Positions 20,946 to 41,047 of a stretch of 41,047 nucleotides of DNA are shown here, piece by piece. The DNA is from Lachnospiraceae bacterium (GTDB lineage: Bacteria > Bacillota > Clostridia > Lachnospirales > Lachnospiraceae): contig JAFUAE010000087.1 in NCBI GenBank assembly GCA_017460845.1, positions 1 through 41,047 on the forward strand, given 5' to 3'. Each line of letters starts with the position of its first letter. Position 1 is the stretch's first letter. Under the pieces are notes generated by a model, which was given only the letters and a program-made list of their open reading frames with translations, did not search any database and was not told the origin of the DNA. Position numbers and translations under genes: made by a program.

Positions 20946-21128
20946 TATATGAGCTCTCAGAAAGTGGCAGATTTACGGGCGTACGAAGTACGCACGGTAA
21001 ATCGGACACTTGATGAGGCAACCGGTATGAGCAATAAAGTCACGCGAGCAAAGCGAGCGGGACGAGTTGCGAATGCCGGTTGAGGATGACGGGAGTGCGT
21101 AGCACGGAGTCATCCGTCAGCTCATATA
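20946..21128. repeat. Hairpin-rich element containing repeat R1, copy 1
   Basis: The ends are a perfect 10-base inverted repeat, TATATGAGCT (20946-20955) and AGCTCATATA (21119-21128). Inside are GATTTAC/GTAAATC (20970-20976, 20997-21003) enclosing GCGTAC-GAA-GTACGC, then CAACCGG/CCGGTTG (about 21019-21025, 21076-21082), and GGATGAC/GTCATCC (21084-21090, 21109-21115). Positions 20952-21022 match 38901-38971 in reverse orientation with 3 differences in 71. It looks like a non-coding mobile or REP-like element. Confidence 0.8.
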
Positions 21129-35505: not shown

Positions 35506-36438
35506 TTATTCCGTAAACAGCGCGGTCGAATAATACCTGTCGCCGCTGTCCGGAAGCAGGGCTACGATCACCTTGCCCTTATTTTCCGGCTTCTTCGCAT
35601 ACTCGATCGCTGCATGCAGCGCAGCGCCGGAGGAAATGCCGACGGAGATACCTTCCGTCTTTGCCAGAAGCTTTGCAGCTGCAAATGCATCCGCGCTCTC
35701 AGCCTTGAAGATTTCATCATAGATTCCGGTATTCAGTACTTCGGGGACAAAGCCGGCACCGATACCCTGGATCTTGTGGGATCCGCTCCTGCCCTCGGAA
35801 AGGACGGGTGAATCCGCCGGCTCTAAAGCCACCACGCGCACTGCCGGATTCTGCTCCTTCAGATATTCCCCCGCTCCGGTCACGGTACCGCCCGTGCCTA
35901 CACCCGCGATAAAGATATCGACCTTTCCGTCCGTATCCTTCCAGATCTCGGGTCCGGTCGTCGCCTTGTGAATTGCCGGGTTCGCGGGATTGACGAACTG
36001 TCCGGGAATAAATCCGCCCGGGATTTCCTTCGCGAGTTCCTCTGCCTTTGCGATCGCCCCTTTCATGCCCTTCGCGCCTTCGGTCAGCACCAGCTCCGCG
36101 CCATAGGCCTTCAGGATGTTCCGGCGTTCCACACTCATGGTTTCCGGCATGGTCAGGATAATGCGGTATCCCTTGGCTGCAGCGATCGCCGCAAGGCCGA
36201 TCCCGGTATTGCCGCTGGTAGGTTCAATGATTACGGATCCTTCTTTCAGCAGACCTTTCTCCTCAGCATCCTCGATCATCGCTTTCGCGATTCTGTCTTT
36301 TACACTTCCGGCCGGATTGAAATATTCCAGCTTGACCAGGACGGTCGCTTCCAGCCCGAGTTCCTTTTCCAGGTTGACCACTTCTACCAGCGGTGTGTTT
36401 CCGATCAGTCCAAGAGTTCCCTTATAAATATTTGACAT
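35506..36438 (-). CDS. cysK: Cysteine synthase A (O-acetylserine sulfhydrylase)
   Basis: The PLP enzyme makes cysteine from O-acetylserine and sulfide. The 310-residue protein shows the PLP lysine in [15 protein letters not shown], the asparagine loop [11 protein letters not shown], the phosphate loop [15 protein letters not shown], and the ending [15 protein letters not shown]. The family fit favours CysK over CysM. The ribosome site is modest (AGGGAAG). A 222-base gap holding repeat R2 separates it from metY upstream. Confidence 0.97.
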
Positions 36439-36660: not shown

Positions 36661-37944
36661 TTATTTCAGCGCTTCAAACCCAAGCTCCAGGTCCGCGATG
36701 ATATCGTCGATGTGCTCCGTACCGATCGACAGACGGATGGTGTTCGGGAAAATGCCCTGGTCCGCCAGTTCTTCCTCCGTCAGCTGGGAATGTGTCGTGC
36801 TCGCCGGATGGATCACCAGGCTCTTGACGTCAGCAACATTTGCCAGCAGCGAGAATATCTTCAGGCTGTCAATGAATTTCCACGCTTCTTCCTTGCCGCC
36901 CTTAATCTCAAAGGTGAAGATCGTCGCGCCGCCATTCGGGAAATAGCGCTCATACAGCGCATGATCCGGATGATCCGGGAGTGAAGGATGGTTGACTTTT
37001 TCCACCAGCGGATGGGCATTTAAATATTCCACGACCTTCTTCGTGTTCTCCGCATGCCGCTCCAGTCTCAGGGACAGCGTCTCAACGCCCTGCAGCAGGA
37101 GAAATGCATTGAACGGGGAAATGCAGGCACCGGTATCGCGGAGCAGGATTGCACGGATGTAAGTGACAAATGCTGCCGGTCCTACTGCATCGTAGAAGGA
37201 AAGTCCGTGATAGCTCGGATTCGGATCCGCGATCTGCGGATATTTTCCGGATGCCTTCCAGTCAAATTTTCCTGCTTCAACTATAATTCCGCCCATCGTG
37301 GTGCCGTGTCCTCCGATAAATTTGGTTGCGGAGTGGACTACGATATCCGCGCCGTGCTCGATCGGGCGGATCAGATACGGTGTGCCGAAGGTATTGTCAA
37401 TCACCAGAGGCAGCCCGTGTCCGTGTGCGATCTGTGCAATTGCGTCGATATCCGGGATATCACTGTTCGGATTGCCGAGGGTCTCCAGGTAGATCGCCCT
37501 GGTGTTGGACTGAATGGCTCCCTCTATTTCCGAAAGGTCATGTGCGTTGACAAAAGTTGTTGTAATCCCGTACTGCGGAAGTGTATGGCTCAGCAGATTG
37601 AAGCTGCCGCCGTAAATTGTCTTCTGGGCTACGATATGTCCGCCGTTTGCGGCCAGTGCCTGGATGGTATAAGTGATTGCTGCCGCTCCGGATGCAAGTG
37701 CCAGCGCTGCGCTGCCGCCCTCAAGAGCTGCGATTCTTCTTTCCAGGACATCCTGGGTCGAGTTGTTCAGTCTGCCGTAAATGTTTCCTGCGTCTGCCAG
37801 TCCGAAACGGTCAGCTGCGTGCTGGCTGTTATGGAAGACGTATGATGTCGTCTGGTAAATCGGGACCGCACGGGAATCAGTTGCGGGGTCTGCTGTTTCC
37901 TGTCCTACGTGAAGCTGCAGTGTTTCAAATCTATAGTTACTCAT
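36661..37944 (-). CDS. metY: O-acetylhomoserine sulfhydrylase (MetY-type)
   Basis: The 427-residue PLP enzyme of the Cys/Met-metabolism family opens with FETLQLHVGQETADPATDSR and the PIYQTTSYVF motif. The PLP lysine lies in VVHSATKFIGGHG, and the C-terminal HPASTTHSQL is typical. The length and the long form near GKYPQIADPNPSYHG point to MetY rather than MetB/MetC. It combines sulfide or thiols with O-acetylhomoserine to make homocysteine or methionine. AGGAG lies 8 bases before the ATG at 37944; the open frame to 38028 has no such site. Expression is likely set by the operator and attenuator upstream. Confidence 0.95.
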   Translation of the reverse strand: MSNYRFETLQLHVGQETADPATDSRAVPIYQTTSYVFHNSQHAADRFGLADAGNIYGRLNNSTQDVLERRIAALEGGSAALALASGAAAITYTIQALAANGGHIVAQKTIYGGSFNLLSHTLPQYGITTTFVNAHDLSEIEGAIQSNTRAIYLETLGNPNSDIPDIDAIAQIAHGHGLPLVIDNTFGTPYLIRPIEHGADIVVHSATKFIGGHGTTMGGIIVEAGKFDWKASGKYPQIADPNPSYHGLSFYDAVGPAAFVTYIRAILLRDTGACISPFNAFLLLQGVETLSLRLERHAENTKKVVEYLNAHPLVEKVNHPSLPDHPDHALYERYFPNGGATIFTFEIKGGKEEAWKFIDSLKIFSLLANVADVKSLVIHPASTTHSQLTEEELADQGIFPNTIRLSIGTEHIDDIIADLELGFEALK

Positions 37945-38069
37945 GATCTGTTCTCCTTTTCCTTTGTGCTTTTCAGTTCTAATCTCTGTATTCCGGATTA
38001 TTTTCCGGATCGAAGGGTCTGCCAACAATTTGTGATTTTTGCGAGTCTCCGGGATTTCTTATGCAAATG

Positions 38070-38137
38070 AAAAAGCCCGGGACTCATGATTGCTCCCGGG
38101 CCAAAATAAATGCCCGGGGCTTGGGTGCTCCCGGGCA
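38070..38137 (-). terminator. Tandem CCCGGG-core hairpins forming a likely transcription attenuator
   Basis: Reading along the metY mRNA, the first hairpin pairs 38130-38137 with 38111-38118 (TGCCCGGG arms). The second pairs 38094-38101 (GCCCGGGA in the mRNA) with 38075-38082 and is followed at once by TTTTT, a textbook intrinsic terminator 126 bases before metY. All arms share the palindromic core CCCGGG, so arms of the two hairpins can swap partners. A further CCCGGG lies at 38228-38233 inside the leader peptide gene. No T-box or SAM-riboswitch hallmark was found. Confidence 0.8.
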
Positions 38138-38162
38138 AATGACATTGGAAAAGATGTATGCT

Positions 38163-38291
38163 TCAGATCATCGAATTCCTTGGAGACGCGCTGCAGGTAC
38201 AGCCGGCCGTCCCAGTCATAAAATATGCCCGGGAGTACAGCATTCGACAACACATGCAAGAATTCTGTCCAAAATGCTTCTGCTCAAACAT
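38163..38291 (-). CDS. Cysteine-rich leader peptide (42 residues) upstream of metY
   Basis: The ATG at 38291 follows AGGAAAGGAA with a spacing of about 11 bases. The peptide begins MFEQKHFGQNSCMCCRM and has five cysteines (12, 14, 15, 31, 33) in 42 residues. The cluster Cys-Met-Cys-Cys near the middle and Cys-Thr-Cys near the end look like stall points under cysteine shortage. It lies between a promoter at 38416-38448 and the tandem hairpins, and no other frame there has such a site. Function as an attenuation peptide is inferred; a small metal-binding peptide is the alternative. Confidence 0.6.
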   Translation of the reverse strand: MFEQKHFGQNSCMCCRMLYSRAYFMTGTAGCTCSASPRNSMI

Positions 38292-38415
38292 GATCTGCGT
38301 TTCCTTTCCTAAGCTTCGTAAATACAAATACTTTGTTTCATACTGGGGGTAGTTATGAACTATCGTGTGTGGGAAACGATGCCTTGACAAAACCGTTTTC
38401 CGTTCGATTGAGTGC

Positions 38416-38448
38416 ATCTTATCACTATAATCCTATCATGTCAATAGG
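38416..38448 (-). promoter_or_regulatory. metY promoter with palindromic operator over the -35 box
   Basis: TTGACA (38439-38444) and TAAGAT (38416-38421), read on the minus strand, are 17 bases apart. The dyad CCTAT-N7-ATAGG (38432-38448) covers the -35 box. A related 17-bp site (13 of 17 identical) lies over the iscS promoter. The leader to metY is about 465 bases. Confidence 0.75.
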
Positions 38449-40263: not shown

Positions 40264-40296
40264 ATTATATTCCCATTCGCCTACTATGTCAATGGG
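40264..40296 (-). promoter_or_regulatory. iscS promoter with IscR-type operator candidate
   Basis: TTGACA (40287-40292) and TATAAT (40264-40269) are both perfect and 17 bases apart. The dyad CCCAT-N7-GTAGG (40280-40296, minus strand) covers the -35 box and resembles the metY operator. The roughly 100-base leader contains overlapping GGTCAG/CTGACC hairpins before the GTG start. Confidence 0.85.
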
Positions 40297-40442: not shown

Positions 40443-40844
40443 ATGATTTCAACGAAAGGCCGTTATGCGATCCGGGTCCTGCTCGACCTGGCTGAACATG
40501 AAGACGGAGAGTATATTCCATTAAAGGAAATTGCTGCAAGACAGGGAATTTCCAAGAAGTATCTGGAAATTATTGTGAAAGACTTGGTGGGCGGCGGCCT
40601 GCTGACCGGCGCAAGCGGCAAGGGCGGCGGTTATAAGCTCTGCCGTAAGCCTGAAGAATATAATATCGGAGAGATCCTGGAGCTGATGGAGGGATCTCTT
40701 TCTCCCGTTGCCTGCCTGACGGATCGTAGTACGCCCTGCCCGCGGCGGGCAGACTGCCAGACGCTTCCGATGTGGGAGGAATATGACAGGCTTGTGCATG
40801 ATTTCTTTTCACAGAAAAAGCTGAGCGACCTGATCGGGTCCTGA
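40443..40844 (+). CDS. iscR: Rrf2-family regulator, IscR-like
   Basis: The 133-residue protein has the Rrf2 winged helix (MISTKGRYAIRVLLDLA to GKGGGYKLCRKPEEYNIGEI). Cysteines lie at 91, 99 and 105, where IscR binds a [2Fe-2S] cluster. The spacing is Cx7Cx5C rather than the Cx5Cx5C of E. coli IscR, and it differs from CymR of Bacillus, which lacks this triad. Its place next to iscS and the shared operators at iscS and metY suggest it senses Fe-S or cysteine status and represses both. Confidence 0.9.
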   Translation: MISTKGRYAIRVLLDLAEHEDGEYIPLKEIAARQGISKKYLEIIVKDLVGGGLLTGASGKGGGYKLCRKPEEYNIGEILELMEGSLSPVACLTDRSTPCPRRADCQTLPMWEEYDRLVHDFFSQKKLSDLIGS

Positions 40845-40890
40845 TGCAGTTTAGAATAATATGATGTAAGGGTCAAAAGCCATGATCCCA

Positions 40891-41014
40891 TGATGAGCTT
40901 GCTCATCAGTGGGAGCACTGGCTTGGGGCCCGCTGGACATGAGTAAGCAGTGGGGTGCTGCGTGCCAGTGGCACGCGTTTAGCACCGACCGAAGCGGAGC
41001 GTAGAAGGGGCCCC
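40891..41014. repeat. Hairpin-rich repeat region after iscR
   Basis: TGATGAGC/GCTCATCA (40891-40908) is an 8-bp stem with a 2-base loop. GGTGCT/AGCACC (40954-40959, 40981-40986) encloses a perfect GCGTGCC-AGT-GGCACGC (40960-40976). GGGGCCC (40925-40931) faces GGGGCCCC (41007-41014). No gene is visible from 40845 to the window end. It resembles the other palindromic elements in style, but no matching copy is present in the window. Confidence 0.65.
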
Positions 41015-41047
41015 ACGGATTACGAATGGCCAGCAGGATTGTGGGAG

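Follow-up and report, generated by a model that had tools for sequence, protein, structure and literature searches.

A putative ribosome-mediated cysteine attenuator upstream of metY in a Lachnospiraceae bacterium, with related leaders before sulfur genes of other anaerobes

The window analysed here, a stretch of 41,047 nts from a Lachnospiraceae bacterium, is contig C15 of a 2.4 Mb genome in 198 contigs. The minus strand carries, in this order, nifS, iscU, a leader region, metY and cysK, and a gene encoding an Rrf2-family regulator lies divergently (Table 1). Two Clostridiales-1 RNAs of Rfam (RF01699) are also present in the window, at 20949-21125 and 40862-41047, the second being cut by the contig end.

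Table 1. Genes and leader elements at the metY locus, in window coordinates
Feature	Position	Strand	Evidence or remark
cysK, cysteine synthase A, next downstream of metY	35506..36438	-	TIGR01139, 445.5 bits (cut-off 350.95)
metY, O-acetylhomoserine aminocarboxypropyltransferase	36661..37944	-	TIGR01326, 625.7 bits (cut-off 495.1); proposed regulated gene
Putative terminator 2: arm D GGCCCGGGAG, arm E TCCCGGGC, tail TTTTT	38070..38102	-	
arm3 (C), GCCCCGGGCA, with U-rich tail TTTATTTT; 3′ half of putative terminator 1	38103..38120	-	
arm2 (B), TGCCCGGGAG; candidate antiterminator partner of arm1 or 5′ arm of terminator 1	38128..38137	-	Covariation, folding
b2, GTCAT	38139..38143	-	Covariation (helix 2)
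b1, ATGAC, partner of b2	38215..38219	-	Covariation (helix 2)
arm1 (A), CTCCCGGGCA, inside the uORF	38226..38235	-	Covariation, folding, pattern-site test
Five CCCGGG copies	38233-38228, 38135-38130, 38118-38113, 38100-38095, 38081-38076	-	
Cys-Met-Cys-Cys codons, proposed stall site	38247..38258	-	Last Cys codon 38249-38247; Cys/Met cluster also in relatives
uORF (leader-peptide gene), 42 codons and stop, five Cys codons	38291-38163	-	Peptide MFEQKHFGQNSCMCCRMLYSRAYFMTGTAGCTCSASPRNSMI
Promoter, TTGACA-17-TAAGAT, TG preceding the -10	38444-38416	-	-35, 38444-38439; -10 (TAAGAT), 38421-38416
Palindrome CCTATTGACATGATAGG over the -35, candidate operator	38432..38448	-	0 mismatches; flanks shared with relatives
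Rrf2-family regulator gene	40443..40844	+	Scores below IscR and CymR cut-offs; candidate palindrome reader

An earlier note on this DNA had placed a promoter ahead of the leader, and the element listed in Table 1 bears this out. A promoter scan of 1 kb returned two promoter-like sites against 1.1 expected, and the sequence surrounding the -35 is found again in relatives. Among the homologous leaders described below, a promoter-like match is present in 102 of the 163 with sufficient upstream sequence, and TTGACA is flanked by CCTA..TAGG-type sequences in 74 of these 102 sites, typically as ACCTATTGACATAGTAGGT, a count made without a shuffled control. A palindrome of the CCTATTGACATNNTAGG type also occurs, with one mismatch, at 40280-40296, over the -35 of the nifS-iscU promoter adjoining the Rrf2 gene. 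Allowing up to two mismatches, it is found at four places in the genome: the metY leader, the nifS-iscU promoter, a second copy of the leader and a site upstream of a LysR gene, which is followed by an apparent trans-sulfuration enzyme (judged by eye). Because a reversed control pattern occurs eight times in the same genome, this number is not an enrichment and it is the locations that carry the weight. An operator for an Rrf2-type protein is the natural guess.

The leader itself contains the 42-residue frame that had been proposed, with a Shine-Dalgarno candidate (AAAGGA) upstream of the start and Cys at residues 12, 14, 15, 31 and 33; the peptide has no match in NCBIfam or Pfam. Five of the 20 CCCGGG of the 41-kb window fall within 158 nts (38076-38233), the first beginning 13 nts past TGTTGT inside the uORF, as had been noticed before. 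Two CCCGGG hairpins follow the uORF stop, also as claimed; only the second had been taken for a terminator, but both look like terminators, with the U-rich tails TTTATTTT and TTTTT, respectively. A consensus scan of the leader region, whose rule accepts loops of 3-8, listed no terminator; the loops of the window hairpins are longer or the hairpins are bulged. The fold of the whole leader is not unusually stable (z of -1.54; 8 of 100 shuffles equal or better). No Rfam 15 family reaches its gathering score at the window leader or at 17 loci of relatives; the matches below threshold at the leader (anti-hemB, E 0.0011; sX11, E 0.055; six weaker) all score far under it. That the layout goes beyond chance follows from the occurrence of homologous leaders in many other genomes.

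A peptide search in 299 genomes of the same family gave a long and noisy list including CCRMxxSRA uORFs upstream of metY and other genes. The covariance model R1, built from 17 leaders, gives the window leader 114.2 bits and matched in 47 of 348 same-family genomes (E ≤ 0.1), three of which (G074, G080 and G288) hold weak matches that were dropped or left unexamined. A second model, R2, built from 57 leaders, matched at E ≤ 0.001 in 20 of 295 genomes of the order, 12 of 341 of the class and 3 of 348 of the phylum, in samples that overlap and include the genome of the window, stricter filters applying for more than 40 of the genomes. With nothing but a Cys codon, Arg-Met and arm1 fixed, the DNA pattern TGYCGAATGNNNNNCTCCCRGGCA occurs in at least 118 stretches of named genomes, and each of the 118 listed is also matched by a covariance model (R1, 80 of 80; R2, 38 of 38; L174, L184 and L203 are cut at one end). 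Among the matches listed, the labels include Lachnospiraceae, Ruminococcaceae, Saccharofermentans, Blautia, Christensenella, Clostridium porci (L197) and, three times, Anaerovibrio, a genus of Negativicutes (L105, L146 and L201); L105 comes from the cultured Anaerovibrio lipolyticus DSM 3074, and a bin labelled Eggerthellaceae (L176) may be misbinned. Altogether, 170 distinct leaders were gathered from sets of 61 kept, 81 and 34 after removal of identical ones, two of them from Anaerovibrio. Left out before counting were L022 (from A1 and A2), L068, L095, L096 and L098 as doubtful, and five antisense matches; the 38 loci L182-L219 entered the pattern-site tests and stand outside the 170. L130 (1046-1196) contains the start of a leader twice, almost identically, on either side of a run of N, which might be a product of assembly.

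These leaders precede metY, cysK, cystathionine synthases and transporters of the cystine/methionine type. When the longest nearby ORF was taken for each of 142 leaders, duplicates kept, 130 downstream ORFs were obtained, and a profile scan of cluster representatives only was used to name them. One PLP cluster (MetY, cystathionine synthase/lyase) accounts for 74 and solute-binding proteins, represented by a cystine-like SBP_bac_3 and MetQ, for 37; the others are four amino-acid permeases, three CysK, two GST-like and two MetN-like proteins and eight singletons, including a glutamate-cysteine ligase family protein, a MoeB-type protein, a PFL-like enzyme and a homocysteine S-methyltransferase. 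Hence 116 of the 130 belong to the MetY/cystathionine-synthase, solute-binding-protein, CysK and MetN-like clusters.

The pairing of arm1 with arm2, extended by b1 with b2, is conserved. In a sequence-only alignment (A4) of 57 of the 61 leaders, L022, L080, L088 and L097 having been dropped for odd lengths, these pairs form in 89.2% of cells, compared with 22-47% in slid controls. Eleven of the 15 pairs have changed on both sides, giving 43 double-change cells versus 11.5 ± 2.9 in shuffles (0 of 500 as high). For example, CCCGGGCA is found with TGCCCGGG, CCCAGGCA with TGCCTGGG, CCCGGACA with TGTCCGGG and GATCCCGG with CCGGGATC, and the ATGAC/GTCAT of b1 and b2 in the window is ATGGC/GCCAT in many relatives. 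Sites selected by the pattern provide an independent test, since the pattern contains no arm2 information: among the matches listed, 111 of 112 sites have an arm2 complement of at least 9/10 downstream, compared with 0 of 110 controls taken upstream and 5 of 560 shuffles (seven loci with short or N-containing flanks were skipped). A T-rich run follows arm2 at 108 of these 112 listed sites versus 9 of 109 control segments 600-770 nts further downstream. The pairing of arm2 with arm3 in the terminator is found in 67.1% of alignment cells with a varying register, and its double-change pairs are no better than shuffles (298 of 500), so that its covariation support is mixed.

In predicted folds of a transcript ending at arm2, arm1:arm2 has a probability above 0.5 in 170 of 170 leaders, a figure partly built in, since the best helix on offer had been picked beforehand. 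Deleting arm1 gives arm2 a downstream partner at above 0.5 in 142 of 170. With the whole leader free, arm1:arm2 passes this threshold in 136 of 170 leaders and is 0.10 in the window copy. The loop between arm1 and arm2 is poorly conserved. A third helix within it (GGCG/CGCC) was rejected, 2 of 100 swaps having reached the native value and shuffles scoring 11.37 versus 11.70, and a CGAATG:CATTTG pairing near arm2 was considered and discarded by eye.

A Cys codon precedes arm1 in 90 of 92 leaders chosen without a Cys pattern, and at least one lies in frame within 45 nts upstream of arm1 in 168 of the 170; the two leaders without one are L065, of the same genus (MMYDMRM), and L070, of the genome of the window (MTFRM). 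Codons could be parsed in 58 of 61 leaders, three being left unparsed. In the four codons before Arg-Met of the parsed leaders, Cys accounts for 120 of 232 codons, compared with 0.7% in neighbouring genes, and Met for 74 of 232, compared with 1.2%. Cys is kept through TGT/TGC swaps and codon-sized indels, and its frequency peaks 4-5 codons before the codon in which arm1 begins, that of Met 6-7 codons before it. From the first base of the last Cys codon to the start of arm1, the distance is 14 nts in the window and in 100 of the 170 leaders, and 12-15 nts in 128. A frame with a start and a Shine-Dalgarno sequence stays open to arm1 in 152 of 170 leaders, versus 7 and 8 in the other frames; uORFs start at a median of 18.7 codons ahead of arm1 and stop at a median of 26 nts before arm2. 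Counts of TGT/TGC by frame (397 versus 372) were set aside as uninformative, since an ATG followed by T gives TGT in the +1 frame. Separately, 48 of the 170 peptides end in Cys right before the stop, often as Arg-Cys-stop.

Very probably, then, the element is a ribosome-mediated transcription attenuator sensing charged tRNA-Cys and perhaps also tRNA-Met. Comparison of the leaders supports the uORF with its Cys codons, the arm1:arm2 and b1:b2 helices, the conserved spacing, a U-rich tract and the setting among sulfur genes; that ribosomes stall, that the arms switch and in which direction the system responds is what we infer. When cysteine is ample, the ribosome would pass through the uORF and disturb arm1, leaving arm2 to pair with arm3, and transcription would end before metY. 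Under cysteine shortage, stalling at Cys-Met-Cys-Cys would hold the leading edge of the ribosome just before arm1 and allow arm1 and b1 to pair with arm2 and b2, which would block terminator 1 and let metY be transcribed; in the window, the second terminator would have to be overcome as well. The earlier idea of a Cys-codon attenuator whose CCCGGG arms swap partners is strongly supported by comparison, but its proposal that a stalled ribosome masks the CCCGGG of the uORF is probably wrong. The leading edge of a ribosome lies about 12-13 nts beyond the first base of the A site and, given the 14-nt offset, a stalled ribosome should leave arm1 free. Low cysteine would hence favor the antiterminator and expression, in the manner of trp-type antitermination rather than by masking.

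The conserved residues around arm1 could alternatively reflect nascent-peptide arrest, in which a CCRM...SRA peptide would stall the ribosome, perhaps upon sensing a thiol, a metal or SAM, and not the charging of tRNA-Cys. Arg-Met does precede arm1 in 79 of the 92 pattern-free leaders (the 58 of 58 in parsed leaders is by construction, the parser requiring this Met) and SRA is common over arm1. However, the Arg codon is CGA in 78 of these 79 leaders, compared with 5.7% of Arg codons in neighbouring genes, which points to a constraint on nucleotides and not on residues. Pairing of TGTCGAATGC with GCGTTCGACA, located after b1, gives a possible protector helix spanning the last Cys codon, the native score of which, 14.27, is reached in 0 of 100 swaps (mean 13.74), although a strict partner, GC[AG]TTCG, is found in only 34 of 170 leaders and, by eye, not in the window copy. 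The SRA codons are arm1 itself and covary with arm2. In L236, moreover, MCCC is retained although arm1 (10 bp) falls in a different frame and encodes different residues, which favors codons over peptide-sequence arrest; L235 (8 bp) and L254 (6 bp) are less clear examples. Peptide arrest is therefore regarded as very unlikely. Sulfur genes of Gram-positive bacteria are often controlled by riboswitches, and the presence before such genes of a leader with structure and a terminator would suit a metabolite-binding RNA with an incidental ORF, but the lack of an Rfam match at gathering score, the poorly conserved inter-arm loop and the preservation of frame, start and Shine-Dalgarno sequence make this reading extremely unlikely.

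The element has not been kept evenly. That Cys codons would be conserved in relatives holds across the family (168 of 170) but is eroded in the immediate genus, where L065 (G009) and L070 have none before arm1 and L064 (G012) has one. Within the genus, a match at E ≤ 1 is found in seven of 25 genomes, and in five, namely G000, G004, G009, G012 and G024, its E value is below 1e-5. A metY at least 72% identical is carried by five of the 25, the genome of the window included, and the element by three of these five; by eye, the metY of G014 has a remnant leader only and that of G010 none. The remnant (L263), also judged by eye, has a uORF reading MYRKLYFEKLIRSNFRFGRM that ends in Arg-Met-stop, lacking Cys codons and arm1. 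L070 (G000:C105:6223-6379), the second copy in the genome of the window, reads MTFRMFSFRT and precedes a homocysteine S-methyltransferase gene that appears, by eye, to be broken by an in-frame TAG.

Of 166 leaders tested, that of the window is the only one to repeat the arm2 core exactly further downstream. Arms C and D can form 7 bp, and a relay could result, in which formation of A:B frees C for D and blocks the terminator D:E; the predicted energies leave this undecided. Stalling would then give A:B and C:D with read-through, and its absence B:C and D:E, two stacked terminators. With the whole leader free, the best predicted fold contains both terminators (-65.0 kcal/mol), followed by A:B with D:E (-62.9 kcal/mol) and A:B with C:D (-61.6 kcal/mol), and imposing A:B raises the energy by 2.1 kcal/mol. 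Once transcription reaches B, the best fold is A:B (-40.9 kcal/mol), and C:D is the best continuation at D after A:B, the unforced fold at that point being different and lower (-60.5 versus -56.7 kcal/mol). Without the relay, terminator 2 would leave metY mostly off. The window copy, as distinct from the family, might accordingly be a decaying member whose two terminators, with b1:b2 backing only the first arm2, keep metY mostly off at any cysteine level. The eroded elements of the genus (L065, L070 and L263) and the best fold of the free leader are in line with decay, but the window copy retains its Cys codons, arm1, b1:b2 and arm2 and its 114.2 bits, and A:B is favored once arm2 has been transcribed, with C:D as its best continuation, so that decay is judged unlikely. 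A fuller scheme, in which a multivalent sulfur attenuator with Cys and Met codons, widespread in gut anaerobes, is combined with an Rrf2-type promoter operator and, in the window, the five-arm relay, is offered tentatively and is rather doubtful as a whole. If true, operator and attenuator would constitute two layers of sulfur sensing.

In the attenuator of the trp operon, a uORF carries codons for the regulated amino acid just before the first arm of mutually exclusive antiterminator and terminator structures. The present element shares the uORF, the pathway-amino-acid codons just upstream of the first arm and a predicted pair of exclusive structures, and differs in its Cys (and Met) codons, its Bacillota hosts, the location of arm1 well inside the uORF and the shared promoter palindrome; it would work like a trp-type attenuator, as a variant of a known mechanism. 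The uORFC-8-2 motif, described before cysS in Rhodobacterales, has two tandem Cys codons in a uORF and a downstream intrinsic terminator (PMC8632094). Compared by description only, our element shares the tandem Cys codons in a uORF and has a putative terminator downstream, but uORFC-8-2 is reported from Alphaproteobacteria, before cysS only and with the Cys codons in the first stem (PMC8632094), whereas several sulfur genes of Bacillota are concerned here. In the part of PMC1262725 available, short ORFs with Cys runs are described ahead of cys operons in Actinobacteria, with no conserved terminator hairpins reported in Mycobacterium, for which Rho was suggested. These leaders resemble ours in a short Cys-rich ORF before sulfur genes and, as far as described, differ in that a covarying antiterminator and a putative intrinsic terminator are present here. 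The Cys run near the stop, a trait of the actinobacterial leaders, was not found in the leaders here, in which the Cys cluster lies a few codons before arm1 and the stop beyond arm1, although 48 of the 170 peptides have one further Cys at their end. A cysteine leader peptide in Mycobacterium was reportedly treated by Canestrari in 2020.

In low-GC Gram-positive bacteria, the sensing of amino acids by RNA is mostly credited to T-boxes and riboswitches. The described clostridial solution for cysteine is the cysteine T-box, as in Clostridium perfringens, which allows read-through of sulfur genes upon cysteine shortage (PMC2940859). As described, the T-box shares this read-through with the response proposed for our element and differs in that the RNA reads the tRNA directly, with no uORF. 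The T-box covariance model has no match at the leader at its gathering score, nor at E up to 10, and gives five matches below the curated cut-off elsewhere in the genome; the SAM (S-box) riboswitch model RF00162 has no match at the leader and none at E ≤ 0.001 in the genome. Leader-peptide attenuation in Firmicutes has been described before hisS/hisZ in bacilli (PMC2965389), a system that, compared by description, differs in its histidine codons and its genes. Its authors state, in the part available, that to their knowledge, ermC aside, no leader-peptide system had been shown outside Proteobacteria and Actinobacteria before the histidine case (PMC2965389). The available parts of PMC11109978, PMC6429828 and PMC2965389, supplements aside, do not mention a clostridial cysteine leader, and searches of the text of open-licence PMC papers on leaders, structured RNAs and Rrf2 regulons gave no prior description of the element. 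With a conserved cysteine leader switch, the sulfur metabolism of rumen and gut Clostridia and Anaerovibrio would have a second means of sensing the charging of tRNA, and metY, cysK and importers of the cystine/methionine type would be linked by it. Natural variants, namely SRA, SQA, SRT and SRI arms and leaders lacking Cys, are available for direct tests. In L240, the uORF (ICCRMR, then stop) ends directly before arm1, providing a natural test of the need for translation over arm1.
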